A stretch of DNA of 64,000 nucleotides from Methanofastidiosum sp. (GTDB lineage Archaea; Methanobacteriota_B; Thermococci; Methanofastidiosales; Methanofastidiosaceae): assembly GCA_013178285.1 (NCBI GenBank), contig JABLXD010000003.1, positions 1-64,000 of the forward strand, read 5' to 3'. Position numbers and translations under genes: made by a program. Of this stretch, positions 668 through 55,808 are shown in pieces (position 1 is the stretch's first letter; the number at the start of each line of letters is the position of its first letter). Below the pieces are notes generated by a model. That model did not search any database. It was given only the letters and a program-made list of their open reading frames with translations, and was not told the origin of the DNA.

Positions 668-753
668 TACATAACGCTTATATTTTTTCTATCTCTTTAT
701 TCAATAATAGAAACTCTTATATTTGATTTTCAAAATTACCTTCTGTGATAAAA

Positions 754-1515
754 ATGAGAAGGAAAACAGTTTCCGTACTAATTTTATTGGCACTATCCTT
801 AAGTTTTGTACCAGGGGTAATAGCAGAGAGTAAAGTCGCTGTTGTTGCAAACTCTATTGACATCGGGATGAATCCTGACCTTATTCCACTACTTAGGAAG
901 AACAATCTGATGGTGGATTACTTTGGATTACAAGATAGTGGGTATGCTGCTTATGATTATGTCATAATTCTTGGGGGGCCCGACTCTGAAGAGCATACAG
1001 GCGATCTTTCTAAGAGAATACTTTCAGAAACTGACCAGAACGCTCTTAGAAATGGCGACCACAAAATATTCTACGAAACAAGTGACTTCTTTAAGATGAA
1101 ACAGAAGGTGTTTGTTCTTGCAGGCTCTGACAGAGACTATACAAAAGTTGCTGTCGACCAGTATGCCTCTCAGGTTATATCTAAAATAACAAATCAGCCG
1201 ATTACAACTGCAACATACAAGACCCTGACGGCCTCACAACTAAAACAGTTGATTGATAGCAAAGAAGATATTTATCTTATAGATGTCAGAACTGAAGAGC
1301 AGTTTGCCGAAAGTCACATACCAAATGCAGTCAATATTCCTTACAACAAGCTTGGGGTAATGATTACTCAGATACCAAAGGACAAAAAAGTTGTTTTATA
1401 CTGCAACACAGGCCAGAAATCTGTAAGTGGAGCACAGTTCTTGGTAGATAGAAACTTTAACAATGTTTACGCAGTGACAGATGGCTACTCAGTCTACTAC
1501 AATCTTGCAAAATAA
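754..1515 (+). CDS. Secreted protein with C-terminal rhodanese domain
   Basis: The 253-residue protein begins with a signal peptide (residues 1-24, ending 'GVIA'). Residues ~26-145 form a domain with 'VIILGGPDSEEHTG' and 'KVFVLAGSDRDYT', similar to domains found in archaeal surface proteins. Residues ~150-253 are a rhodanese domain with 'YLIDVRTEEQF', 'HIPNAVNIPY' and the catalytic loop 'YCNTGQKS', Cys about 217. It probably handles sulfane sulfur or a thiol modification outside the cell; the substrate is unknown. ATG 754 is preferred over GTG 745, which would add only three residues before the basic n-region. It is convergent with the L16/L10e gene across an A/T-rich gap. Confidence 0.8.
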   Translation: MRRKTVSVLILLALSLSFVPGVIAESKVAVVANSIDIGMNPDLIPLLRKNNLMVDYFGLQDSGYAAYDYVIILGGPDSEEHTGDLSKRILSETDQNALRNGDHKIFYETSDFFKMKQKVFVLAGSDRDYTKVAVDQYASQVISKITNQPITTATYKTLTASQLKQLIDSKEDIYLIDVRTEEQFAESHIPNAVNIPYNKLGVMITQIPKDKKVVLYCNTGQKSVSGAQFLVDRNFNNVYAVTDGYSVYYNLAK

Positions 1516-3895: not shown

Positions 3896-4432
3896 TTATT
3901 CACCTTCAAAATCTACGATAGTGAAAACACCGTAGTCTTCTAGCCTCCTCATACCACCAAGTTCAGGAAGGCCTACTATGAAGGCAGTTTCAACAACATT
4001 TCCTCCAAGTTTTTCTATGAGTTTGCAAGCTGCCAATGCAGTTCCACCCGTTGCTATTAGGTCATCAACTAATAGTACATTATCTCCTTTCATTATAGCA
4101 TCAAGGTGGACTTCAATTGAGTCCTTTCCATATTCAAGCTCATACTCATGATTTTCAGTTTTATGAGGTAGTTTACCTTTTTTTCTAATTAAGACAAAAC
4201 CGGCACCAAGTTTATAGGCAACTGCCCCACCAAGTATGAATCCCCTAGCTTCAACACCTGCTACAAGATTAATCTTTTTATCTTTGTACTTCTCATAGAT
4301 TATATCTACTGTGTCTTTTAGTCCGTCTTTATCTTTCAATAAAGTCGTGATGTCTCTGAACATCACACCTTGTTTTGGGAAATCTGGTATCGTTCTTATC
4401 TTATTTCTTATGCTATCTATCCTCTTATCCGT
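3896..4432 (-). CDS. apt: Adenine phosphoribosyltransferase with no canonical start at the family N-terminus
   Basis: Apt makes AMP from adenine and PRPP. The PRPP loop is 'VLLVDDLIATGGTA', and 'VAGVEARGFILGGAVA' is also typical. The conserved N-terminal block 'IRTIPDFPKQGVMFRDITT' is fully encoded but lies upstream of the first GTG (4366) and ATG (4363). No ATG, GTG or TTG occurs in frame between it and the stop of the upstream MTA phosphorylase gene. Candidate initiators are ACG 4432, four bases after the Shine-Dalgarno GGTGA, and ATA 4420 or 4411. The outer boundary given uses ACG 4432. If initiation were at 4366 the enzyme would lose its first conserved segment. The gene follows the MTA phosphorylase gene, which yields adenine. 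Confidence 0.85.
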   Translation of the reverse strand, partial: TDKRIDSIRNKIRTIPDFPKQGVMFRDITTLLKDKDGLKDTVDIIYEKYKDKKINLVAGVEARGFILGGAVAYKLGAGFVLIRKKGKLPHKTENHEYELEYGKDSIEVHLDAIMKGDNVLLVDDLIATGGTALAACKLIEKLGGNVVETAFIVGLPELGGMRRLEDYGVFTIVDFEGE

Positions 4433-4443
4433 GCAATCACCTT

Positions 4444-5181
4444 CTATATTTTTGGAATAGTTTCAACTATTAGTTTCTTTACATTCTCAGAATTTTTCTT
4501 ATATATTTCAAGTACCATCTCAAAAGTTACAGGCTCTTCATTTTCCTTCCAGCAGTCATAGTCTGTTGACATGGCTACAGTGGCATATTCCATTTCAAGC
4601 TCTTTTGCAAGAAATACCTCCGGAACAGTCGACATATTTATTACATCTGCACCAAACATTCTAAACATATGGGACTCAGCCCTAGTTGAAAACCTTGGGC
4701 CCTCTATTGTTATAACAGTTCCTTTTGGATGATATTTTAAATCAAGCTTTTTGGCACTGTCTATTATTAGACCCCTTAAGTTCTCAGAAAACGGGTCGGC
4801 AGTCGGTGTGTGTATTACCTTTTCTTCATGAAAAAAAGTATACTCTCTTTTTTTTGTAAAGTCTATGACCTGATCTGGAAAAACAAGGTGGCCTGGATGA
4901 ATTTCTTCTCTTAGAGATCCAACGGCTGTCGTTGCTAGTATATGGGTACAGCCAATATTTTTTAATGCTAATATATTTGCCCGGTAATTGACTCCTGATG
5001 GGTAAATCGAATGATCTCGCCCATGCCTTGCTAGTATTACTACATCCTTCCCGTTTATTCTCCCCGTCATAAAGGAACTTGAAGGATTCCCATATTTTGT
5101 GGTCATGTATACTTCTTCATAATCTTTCAAAAGTTTTGGATCGTCAAGACCGCTTCCGCCTATAATGCCTATTTTTGTCAT
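4444..5181 (-). CDS. mtnP: S-methyl-5'-thioadenosine phosphorylase
   Basis: This 245-residue member of the PNP/MTAP family splits methylthioadenosine (or a related purine nucleoside) with phosphate, giving adenine and methylthioribose-1-phosphate. Signature blocks are 'IGIIGGSGLDDP', 'LARHGRDHSIYPSGVNYRAN', 'TIEGPRFSTRAE', 'INMSTVPEVFLAKELE' and 'STDYDCWKENEEPVT'. The last two resemble eukaryotic MTAP rather than guanosine/inosine PNP. ATG 5181 has GTGATTAG just upstream, so the in-frame GTG 5190 is part of the ribosome-binding site. The next gene downstream is apt, which would recycle the adenine, so the pair forms a methionine/adenine salvage unit. Confidence 0.93.
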   Translation of the reverse strand: MTKIGIIGGSGLDDPKLLKDYEEVYMTTKYGNPSSSFMTGRINGKDVVILARHGRDHSIYPSGVNYRANILALKNIGCTHILATTAVGSLREEIHPGHLVFPDQVIDFTKKREYTFFHEEKVIHTPTADPFSENLRGLIIDSAKKLDLKYHPKGTVITIEGPRFSTRAESHMFRMFGADVINMSTVPEVFLAKELEMEYATVAMSTDYDCWKENEEPVTFEMVLEIYKKNSENVKKLIVETIPKI

Positions 5182-5266
5182 ACTAATCACTAACTCAAAT
5201 ATTGGATAATTTTATAAAATTTGTTACATGGAAAAATATTTAAGGTTTAATATAATCTTCTGCTCT

Positions 5267-12344: not shown

Positions 12345-12357
12345 AAGCTTTAAAAAC
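12345..12357 (+). promoter_or_regulatory. TATA-like box of the S19e operon
   Basis: AAGCTTTAAAAAC predicts transcription starting near 12377, a few bases before the GAGGTGA ribosome-binding site of S19e. Inferred from sequence and spacing. Confidence 0.45.
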
Positions 12358-12398
12358 ATAACAATAATGCTTTTTTAATACCAAGAGAGGTGAGTATT

Positions 12399-12851
12399 AT
12401 TACAACAGTATATGATGTTCCTGCTGATATGCTAATTGACGGTGTTAAGGAAGAACTAAAAAATGACAAGAATATAACACCACCCCAGTGGGCAACTTTT
12501 GTTAAAACCGGATCATCAAGAGAGAAAGTTCCAGACCAGAATGACTGGTGGTATATAAGAGCGGCCTCTATAATGAGAAAGGTGTATGTATACGGTCCTG
12601 TAGGTGTTGAGACCTTGAGAGTCAACTATGGCAGTAAAAAGAATAGAGGCGTAAAACCTGAGAAGTTTACAAAATCATCTGGTGCGATAATAAGAAAGAT
12701 CTTTACACAGCTTGAAAAGGGCGGATACATAACAAAAGCTGAAAATGGAAGAATAATGTCCCCACAGGGAATGTCTCTTCTTGACAAAAAGGCTTCCGAA
12801 ATTAAGTCTAAAATAGAAGCAGATATACCTGAACTTAAAAAATACTACTAA
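12399..12851 (+). CDS. rps19e: 30S ribosomal protein S19e, probably starting at ATT
   Basis: About 150 residues with the S19e pattern 'TTVYDVPADMLI', 'PPQWATFVKTGSSREK', 'DWWYIRAASIMRKVY', 'GPVGVETLRVNYGSKKNRG' and 'SSGAIIRKIFTQLEKGGYI'. Homologues begin M-TTVYDVPAD, and here the codon at that methionine is ATT (12399). The strong Shine-Dalgarno GAGGTGA (12387-12393) leaves five bases before that ATT, exactly as L31e leaves five before its ATG. The only in-frame canonical codon, GTG 12390, lies inside the Shine-Dalgarno itself. I therefore favour ATT; GTG 12390 would add three residues. First gene of S19e-PDCD5-PP-loop. Confidence 0.92.
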   Translation: MTTVYDVPADMLIDGVKEELKNDKNITPPQWATFVKTGSSREKVPDQNDWWYIRAASIMRKVYVYGPVGVETLRVNYGSKKNRGVKPEKFTKSSGAIIRKIFTQLEKGGYITKAENGRIMSPQGMSLLDKKASEIKSKIEADIPELKKYY

Positions 12852-12860
12852 AGTGATTTT

Positions 12861-13190
12861 TTGTCTGATGATGCTGAAGCCATAAAGAGAAAGAAGTTAG
12901 AAGAACTTCAAAAACAAGCAATGGCAGATGAACAGGCTAAACAGCAGAAGACTGAATTTGAACTACAGAAGCAGCAAATAATGCGTGCCCTTCTAACTCC
13001 TGAAGCCAGGGAGAGACTTACTAGAGTAAAGATGGCCAGAAAAGAAGAAGGCGAACAAATAGAGCTCCTACTGATTCAGCTCTACCAAGCCGGAAAAATA
13101 ACAAAGCAAGTCGATGACGCAATGCTAAAACAGATACTGGAAAGGGCTCTTTTAAGCAACAAGAAGGAGTTTAAGATAAGAAGGATCTAG
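12861..13190 (+). CDS. DNA-binding protein of the PDCD5/TFAR19 family
   Basis: This 109-residue, highly charged helical protein has the PDCD5 core 'LLTPEARERLTRVKMARKEE' and 'QLYQAGKITKQVDDAMLKQI'. Archaeal members are small nucleic-acid-binding or ribosome-associated proteins; the eukaryotic homologue interacts with chaperonin. It starts at TTG 12861 with GTGAT upstream, nine bases after the S19e stop. S19e-PDCD5 adjacency is widespread in Archaea and supports a translation-linked role. Confidence 0.93.
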   Translation: MSDDAEAIKRKKLEELQKQAMADEQAKQQKTEFELQKQQIMRALLTPEARERLTRVKMARKEEGEQIELLLIQLYQAGKITKQVDDAMLKQILERALLSNKKEFKIRRI

Positions 13191-53151: not shown

Positions 53152-53688
53152 ATTAGAAGGTATCAGATTGGAGTCATTGGTTCTGCGAGGGGCGACATAG
53201 GAAGCGATATCAGGGCAGCTGCAAGGGAACTTGGAAGAGTAATAGCAAAGACTAATCTTGTACTTTTTTCTGGTGCATGTCCTGGACTTCCTTTAGAAGC
53301 GACACTGGGCGCTAAAGAAGCGGGTGGAACAACAGTTGGAGTATCACCTGCTATTAACCTAAAAGAACATGTTGAAGATTATCAGTATCCTACTGATGTC
53401 TTTGATTCCCTTATATTCACTGGTTCTGGGTACAAAGGCAGGAATGTTACGCTTGTCAGAAGCTGTGATGCTGTTATTTCTGTTCAGGGAATGATTGGAA
53501 CTCTAAATGAGCTTACAATAGCCTACGATGAACAGAAGATAGTTGGATTGTTACTTGGAACTGGCGGTGCTTCTGATCTATTCTCTGATGTATTAAAGAA
53601 GCTCGGTAAGTCAGATGAAAATATTATGGCTTCTGATGATCCCAACTTTTTAGTTGAAAGAATAATAAAAGCTTTAGATGTTCTTTAG
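53152..53688 (+). CDS. LOG/TIGR00725-family Rossmann protein, probably starting at ATT
   Basis: The frame encodes about 178 residues of a complete LOG-type protein: 'YQIGVIGSARGDIGSDIRAA', 'NLVLFSGACPGLPLEATLGA', 'SCDAVISVQGMIGTLNELTI'. The last block is the diagnostic GGxGT-type signature with one glycine changed (Q-G-M-I-G-T). Relatives include cytokinin-activating LOG enzymes and uncharacterised 'lysine decarboxylase-like' proteins. No ATG, GTG or TTG exists in frame before 53491; ATT 53152 lies eight bases after GGAG (53140-53143) and aligns with the family start. It follows rpa32 and overlaps the convergent PHP gene by 15 bases. Confidence 0.82.
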   Translation: MRRYQIGVIGSARGDIGSDIRAAARELGRVIAKTNLVLFSGACPGLPLEATLGAKEAGGTTVGVSPAINLKEHVEDYQYPTDVFDSLIFTGSGYKGRNVTLVRSCDAVISVQGMIGTLNELTIAYDEQKIVGLLLGTGGASDLFSDVLKKLGKSDENIMASDDPNFLVERIIKALDVL

Positions 53689-54486: not shown

Positions 54487-54608
54487 TGAAAACAAGAAAT
54501 TGAATCAATTTAAATGACTTTCTGATTTCATAAAACAATAACAAATTTTTTAATTGAAAATGAATTAATTTTTAATAAGGTGATTAGATTAACTATATTT
54601 TACCTCCG

Positions 54609-55808
54609 ATGGCCATTATTATTGGATTATTGGTGGGAGTAACAATTGTTAAATATCTAACAGTTCATCAGAGTAAGATTAGAATTTATTTAACCTTGTT
54701 AATAATTGAATTTTTTATTTTCATTCCTCTTCTGTATACCTATAGAGATGGGATAGGGATTATCATTCTTGCTTTTCTAATAGCTATTGTAGCTGGTTAT
54801 TATATTATGACCTATAAATTACTATCAACTAAAGATAAAAGATATGTTCCAAAACTCACTAGGAAAAAAGGCGATTTTGGTAATGGGAATACTGCAGTTA
54901 TTTATTTTACCCATGGTGAGCCAGAAGACTATAATCCAATAGGATGGATAAATCAGTTTAGAGAGTTTGATGAGCAGAAGATTAAGTTTATCCCATTTTT
55001 AGTTAGGCCAATCTTTCTCTATATGTTGAGGAAAAAGTATATCCATGTTGGTTTTAGCAAACATAAGAAAATGCATGAAAGGATGATGAAATCTTTAGAA
55101 GAAAGATTTAGAAAAGAAGGAGACCTATCCACTAAGTTCTATCTTTCATTCTTAGAAGATGAGCCAAGGCCTGATGCTGCAGCCATCACAGCATTAAATG
55201 AGGGAGCAAGCAGAATAATTGTTAGTGAAGTTTTCTTGACTATTTCAAATCATACTGCCGAAGGTAAGGAGTTAATTGAAAAAATTGATTTCGACGATTA
55301 TGGAGTTTCAATAGACTATACTGGCCCTCTATGGGATTCAAAGACTTTGCAGAGCATGTTTATCGAAAGAGTAAACAAGAACCTAGGAAAGGCAGATAAG
55401 AAAAAAGTTGGAGTTTTACTTGTTGGACATGGGCAGCCAAAAGAGTGGGACATGGAATGGCCAACGGAAACAGAGCACGAGATTAAATTTAGAAAAGATG
55501 TTCTGGAGATTTTTGTTAAAGACGGATACGATTCTAAGAATTTAGATCTTGCATGGATGGAGTTTAGAGAACCTTGCACCTCAGAAGCTATCCAGAAATT
55601 AATTCAAAATGGTGTAGAGAAGATATTTTATTTCTCTGCTGCAATTAGTGCTGATAGCATTCACAGCATGTGTGATTTGCCTGAGCTTGTTTCTAAGTGT
55701 GAAATGCCTAATTGCATTGAAGTTATTAATCTCGGGGCATGGAATGATGATCCAATTGTAATCGATGCGATTAAAGAGAAGATTGATAGAGTCAAGTTTG
55801 CCTTATAA
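54609..55808 (+). CDS. Membrane-anchored chelatase-like protein
   Basis: The 399-residue protein has two or three N-terminal membrane segments (residues ~2-70) followed by a two-lobed chelatase-like body. The first lobe starts 'AVIYFTHGEPEDYNPIGW'; the second starts 'VGVLLVGHGQPKEWDMEW', the His-Gly pattern of ferrochelatase/CbiX/CbiK proteins. Other blocks are 'GASRIIVSEVFLTISNHTAE' and 'LDLAWMEFREPCTSEAIQKL'. It may insert a metal into a tetrapyrrole at the membrane, but the active-site assignment is uncertain and the membrane anchor is unusual. It is a single-gene unit, followed by a perfect inverted repeat. Confidence 0.72.
   Translation: MAIIIGLLVGVTIVKYLTVHQSKIRIYLTLLIIEFFIFIPLLYTYRDGIGIIILAFLIAIVAGYYIMTYKLLSTKDKRYVPKLTRKKGDFGNGNTAVIYFTHGEPEDYNPIGWINQFREFDEQKIKFIPFLVRPIFLYMLRKKYIHVGFSKHKKMHERMMKSLEERFRKEGDLSTKFYLSFLEDEPRPDAAAITALNEGASRIIVSEVFLTISNHTAEGKELIEKIDFDDYGVSIDYTGPLWDSKTLQSMFIERVNKNLGKADKKKVGVLLVGHGQPKEWDMEWPTETEHEIKFRKDVLEIFVKDGYDSKNLDLAWMEFREPCTSEAIQKLIQNGVEKIFYFSAAISADSIHSMCDLPELVSKCEMPNCIEVINLGAWNDDPIVIDAIKEKIDRVKFAL

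Follow-up and report, generated by a model that had tools for sequence, protein, structure and literature searches.

Results

The gene for ribosomal protein S19e (eS19) studied here, which comes from the archaeal genus Candidatus Methanofastidiosum, is in all likelihood translated from an ATT codon by the normal initiator Met-tRNA, as one case of a genus-wide use of near-cognate starts. It lies on the forward (+) strand of the window, i.e. the whole stretch of 64,000 nucleotides that was analysed, with the following features.

12349..12356, + strand: TATA-like box TTTAAAAA, kept as TTTAAAAA or TTTATAAA in the genus
12387..12393, + strand: Shine-Dalgarno sequence (SD) GAGGTGA, complementary to the 16S 3′ end GATCACCTCCT, with a duplex energy of −12.1 kcal/mol
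12390..12392, + strand: in-frame GTG within the SD, the pick of a standard ORF caller but not, in our judgement, the true start
12399..12401, + strand: putative S19e start codon, ATT without exception in 9/9 genus genomes
12399..12851, + strand: ribosomal protein S19e, 150 aa (PF01090; NF006811)
12861..13190, + strand: PDCD5/TFAR19-like DNA-binding protein, directly 3′ of S19e

The start region of S19e

As assessed by profile searches, S19e is a full-length match to curated models of its family, above the cut-offs of both PF01090 (182.9 bits, cut-off 29.4) and NF006811 (219.6 bits, cut-off 156), with residues 2–149 aligned to profile positions 2–149 of 150. Because residue 2 falls on position 2 of the 150-position NF006811 model, ATT 12399 occupies the Met position. 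The reading frame opens at 12354, and ATT 12399–12401 is followed by ACA ACA GTA TAT GAT GTT, which corresponds to the N-terminal sequence of the S19e family.

GAGGTGA is separated from ATT 12399 by GTATT, a gap of five bases. Since the 16S gene of a genus relative (G007) ends in GATCACCTCCT, this motif is a true complement of the anti-SD; the same 16S end carries CACCTCCT. All elements of the ribosome-binding arrangement claimed in a preliminary description of this DNA are present, its quoted span beginning a few bases early, and L31e has, as also claimed there, the identical SD and five-base gap (GAGGTGA-GAACA-ATG). Starts led by a strong SD within the window cluster at offsets of 4–5 bases. 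In 0.44 Mb of the window's genome, ATG codons lie behind the SD at offsets of 4 (n = 53), 5 (n = 23), 6 (n = 14), and 3 (n = 4) bases, and the S19e offset of 5 is thus a usual distance, at an SD that GTG 12390 could not use. The arrangement GAGGTGA-N5-ATT has only two copies in the 2.1-Mb genome, the second being antisense in a P-type ATPase-like gene. The other ATT, at 12396, was rejected as a start: it would stand at an SD offset of 2, and three genomes have AAT in its place.

Elsewhere in the window, the ORFs at 1562–2083 (− strand), 727–1515 (+ strand), and 4444–5190 (− strand) have a GTG within the SD, 9 bases ahead of the true ATG. A mechanical ORF caller takes such an SD-internal GTG as the start at L10e and at other genes, and GTG 12390 sets the same trap. 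Based on the spacing of archaeal promoters, the TATA-like box predicts a transcription start near 12376–12380, and a leader of ∼20 bases for S19e. The PDCD5-like gene that follows begins with TTG (12861–12863), conserved in 9/9 genomes.

The S19e initiator column in related genomes

The gene was compared in nine genus genomes, a tenth assembly being without it; all of the genomes are MAGs. The start region is GAGGTGAGT(A/T-rich codon)ATT-ACAAC in each of the nine, with ATT in the initiator column five bases past GAGGTGA (9/9). Outside the genus, this column holds ATG in 9/9 genomes drawn from three sister families within the order, and ATG or GTG in Thermococci. The codon in the Met column of S19e is therefore near-cognate, one base from ATG, and neither GTG nor TTG. 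Aligning the start region of close relatives, the check proposed in the preliminary description, has thus returned ATT in the same column throughout the genus and ATG in its sister families, at the point where the family model begins, and sequence comparison confirms the observation of a putative ATT start for S19e. A sequencing or assembly error was rejected, the same column being ATT in nine genomes that include several separate named MAGs. The other conserved Ile columns of S19e (n = 5, nine genomes) all vary synonymously, whereas column 1 is always ATT. This invariance is suggestive evidence against an ordinary Ile codon, although weak alone, as the codon is invariant in 20 of the 100 conserved S19e columns in the nine genomes.

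Putative near-cognate starts in other genes

Three further candidates are found inside the window.

3896..4432, − strand: adenine phosphoribosyltransferase (apt), ACG start at 4432–4430, in a column that is ACG or ATG in the genus
53152..53688, + strand: SLOG/LDcluster4 protein, ATT start at 53152–53154, start column compared in 10 genus genomes
54588..55808, + strand: weaker candidate ORF, ATT start at 54588–54590, with SD AGGTGA and TAG, then ATT

For apt, the start has to lie at 4432; the codon there is ACG in the window and follows AAGGTGATTGC. Across the genus this column is ACG in five members and ATG in three, with the same SD. In the SLOG gene, the start column is ATT in six and ATC in four genomes (10/10 genus genomes), with an SD-like stretch, and there is no ATG/GTG/TTG from the upstream stop to the conserved region. 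The weaker candidate, ATT 54588, lies behind AAGGTGATTAG and is also ATT in the relative G002, with an ATG seven codons downstream. Separately, the start of an ABC permease is CTG in G002 and ATG in the window.

Outside the window, two genes have conserved AUH starts. The hemB start (L244–L253) is ATC in eight genomes, ATA in one, and ATT in one (10/10 genus genomes), preceded by GGAGG or GAGGTGA, and sister family f4 has ATG or GTG. The radB start (L262–L270) is ATA or ATT in 9/9 genus genomes, with a stop codon immediately before the ATA in three of them, and family f4 has ATG or TTG. A canonical codon is absent as an alternative start in hemB, radB, and SLOG. Single cases include an archaeal GlmU-like enzyme (L107, 2273–3439, − strand; ATA), a ThiF/MoeB protein (L111, 4385–5125, − strand; ATA), and a HepT-like protein (L101, 4777–5109, − strand; CTG), all three without a canonical codon for at least 24 codons, as well as ScpA (CTG) and a catalase (ATA). 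One substitution would turn the AUH starts of S19e, hemB, radB, and SLOG into ATG. Because these four genes keep AUH and never have AUG in the genus, their starts are probably held by selection, and the weak start may be retained to limit yield.

Survey of starts led by a Shine-Dalgarno sequence

Near-cognate starts were surveyed in ∼2 Mb of DNA (0.84 Mb of the window's genome and 1.15 Mb of the relative G002), using ORFs of at least 90 codons with no ATG/GTG/TTG among the first 15 codons, and an SD with five or more matching bases, the codon lying 4–5 bases behind it. Codons so placed were near-cognate in 17/961 instances, compared with 13/4827 for other codons (Fisher p = 7e-7). The 17 cases comprise ATA (10), CTG (4), ACG (2), and ATC (1), and some of them are probably spurious ORFs (e.g. 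L164, L171, and L107 on the + strand). About 14 cases lie above background, and 445 ORFs have a canonical start led by an SD; this puts the near-cognate share of SD-led starts in the surveyed DNA at ∼3%, a lower bound. In matched runs, p was 0.016 for G000, 6e-6 for G002, and 0.5 for Thermococci. This Thermococci control (0.4 Mb, same procedure), which is small, GC-richer, and distant, showed no enrichment (2/252 versus 19/2951, p = 0.5). Two other counts, of codons behind SDs in general and of columns with a conserved SD between paired orthologs, were too noisy. When paired orthologs were tested at the third position, SLOG was recovered, the rest being mainly antisense ORFs.

Initiation machinery

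The initiator tRNA (L304) shows the expected A1-U72, and its anticodon stem contains the usual three G-C pairs; an unusual initiator tRNA was therefore rejected as the cause of near-cognate initiation. A defective aIF1 was rejected as well: the protein in the genus closely resembles that of M. jannaschii, with KRRFGKLMT among the matching residues, and it starts with ATG where seen. Hence, no start-selection defect is visible in the initiator tRNA or aIF1 sequences. Work on S. solfataricus, cited in PMC6237735, indicates that aIF1 promotes the discrimination of this archaeon against non-canonical starts.

Alternative explanations

S19e might instead start at GTG 12390, with ATT as a plain isoleucine codon and an extension, M-S-I/N-I, before TTVYDV; the protein would then begin with SIITTVYDVPADMLIDGVK or its Met form. 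This codon is the sole in-frame ATG/GTG/TTG up to 25 codons from the upstream stop, is chosen by standard ORF callers, and is invariant in 9/9 genus genomes. We nevertheless consider such a start very unlikely. As stated in the preliminary description, the GTG falls within the SD. For the 20 bases that precede it, pairing with the anti-SD gives just −2.9 kcal/mol, versus −12.1 kcal/mol for GAGGTGA. The next-but-one codon of the extension, which precedes the putative ATT start, is ATT in six genus genomes and AAT in three (Ile to Asn), and in sister families the ATT column holds ATG, with no N-terminal extension matching a GTG start. The upstream start that the preliminary description had set against the ATT is thus conserved as a codon, but as part of the SD, with an Ile-to-Asn change in the codon before ATT and no matching extension in sister families. 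Moreover, the same SD-internal artefact recurs 9 bases before real ATGs in the window (L10e and others), and a GTG start cannot account for hemB, radB, and SLOG, which have no canonical codon.

The preliminary description had also proposed that the ATT start may be autoregulatory. That ATT is kept in nine genomes when a single substitution restores ATG would suit autoregulation of S19e, and AUU is needed for autocontrol of E. coli infC, which encodes IF3 (Butler et al. 1987, as cited in PMC9845219). However, AUU and its like are not confined to an autocontrolled gene in this genus: AUH/ACG starts are common to many unrelated genes, including the non-ribosomal hemB, radB, apt, and SLOG, so that the S19e ATT is better read as part of a genus-wide habit than as an S19e-specific device. 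In addition, S19e is no initiation factor and is not known to act in start-codon selection, and no conserved leader structure was found for it, nor would one be expected in ∼20 bases. Autoregulation thus seems unlikely, and the preliminary interpretation is supported in part, strongly for the ATT start and not for its regulatory role. Initiation of AUH codons by isoleucyl-tRNA, with Ile rather than Met as the first residue, would fit the swapping of ATT, ATC, and ATA, all Ile codons, in hemB, radB, and SLOG, where ATG is never seen in the genus. Yet ATA and ATT/ATC require different Ile tRNAs, the initiator tRNA appears normal, and ACG exchanges with ATG at the same column of apt in sister species while CTG starts also occur, which makes mismatched Met-tRNAi likelier and Ile initiation highly improbable. 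It is scarcely credible that readthrough or frameshifting from an upstream or downstream gene dispenses with near-cognate starts altogether; SLOG and some radB copies do lie directly behind the stop of another gene, but S19e and apt have their own leader and in-frame stops close upstream, and all cases conserve a correctly spaced SD ahead of the near-cognate codon.

Discussion

Our preferred reading is initiation of S19e at ATT 12399. The strong SD GAGGTGA would position the 30S subunit over this codon, and the ordinary initiator Met-tRNA would pair with AUU despite the third-position mismatch, to yield M-TTVYDVPAD. The expected N terminus would be TTVYDVPADMLIDGVK, with or without Met. Genus-wide, a minority of genes would start at AUU, AUC, AUA, ACG, and CUG, in every case behind a suitably spaced SD, and selection would probably keep the weak AUH starts, the simplest reason being a ceiling on yield. 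The sequences themselves show the start column, its conservation, the SD, and, for several genes, the absence of a canonical alternative; from them we infer an N-terminal Met, the use of the normal initiator tRNA, and selection for low yield. On balance, we favour a relaxed or altered start-codon check in Ca. Methanofastidiosum, in which AUU, AUC, AUA, ACG, and CUG would be regular conserved starts for several percent of genes, with AUH selected in S19e, hemB, and radB.

Similar starts are known from other systems. Like S19e, infC is a translation-machinery gene with an AUU behind a Shine-Dalgarno sequence, conserved in relatives; unlike S19e, which is structural, archaeal, and shows no sign of autocontrol, it encodes the factor responsible for start-codon surveillance and is subject to autocontrol through AUU. 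In the Asgard family Kariarchaeaceae, an ATT start has been proposed for the tubulin AtubA from homology and a plausible ribosome-binding site (PMC13394414). This is likewise an archaeal gene whose putative ATT start comes from sequence, but it is a single gene in one MAG, whereas Methanofastidiosum has several such genes in nine or ten genomes, with ATG in sister clades. Non-AUG starts in chloroplasts and bacteria are GUG, UUG, and rare AUU/CUG/AUC (PMC9845219), with bacterial CUG starts quoted there as 20 genes in 69 genomes. These near-cognate starts lower yield, as we propose for Methanofastidiosum, but AUU/AUC/CUG are very rare singletons there, in contrast to the Methanofastidiosum starts, which form a conserved class and extend to AUA and ACG. 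In the open-access literature, we found no archaeal genus for which near-cognate starts are described as a conserved class.

Methanofastidiosum are uncultured methane-making archaea, and ATT, ATC, ATA, ACG, and CTG are almost never accepted as starts. Because standard gene callers consider only ATG, GTG, and TTG, N termini in this genus would be mis-modelled, either shortened or extended, and such mis-annotation perhaps affects other uncultured archaea too. A genus that keeps AUH in an essential ribosomal protein, an enzyme of the haem pathway, and a recombinase would make it possible to examine in nature how stringently archaea select their starts, and to ask why a weak start is retained.
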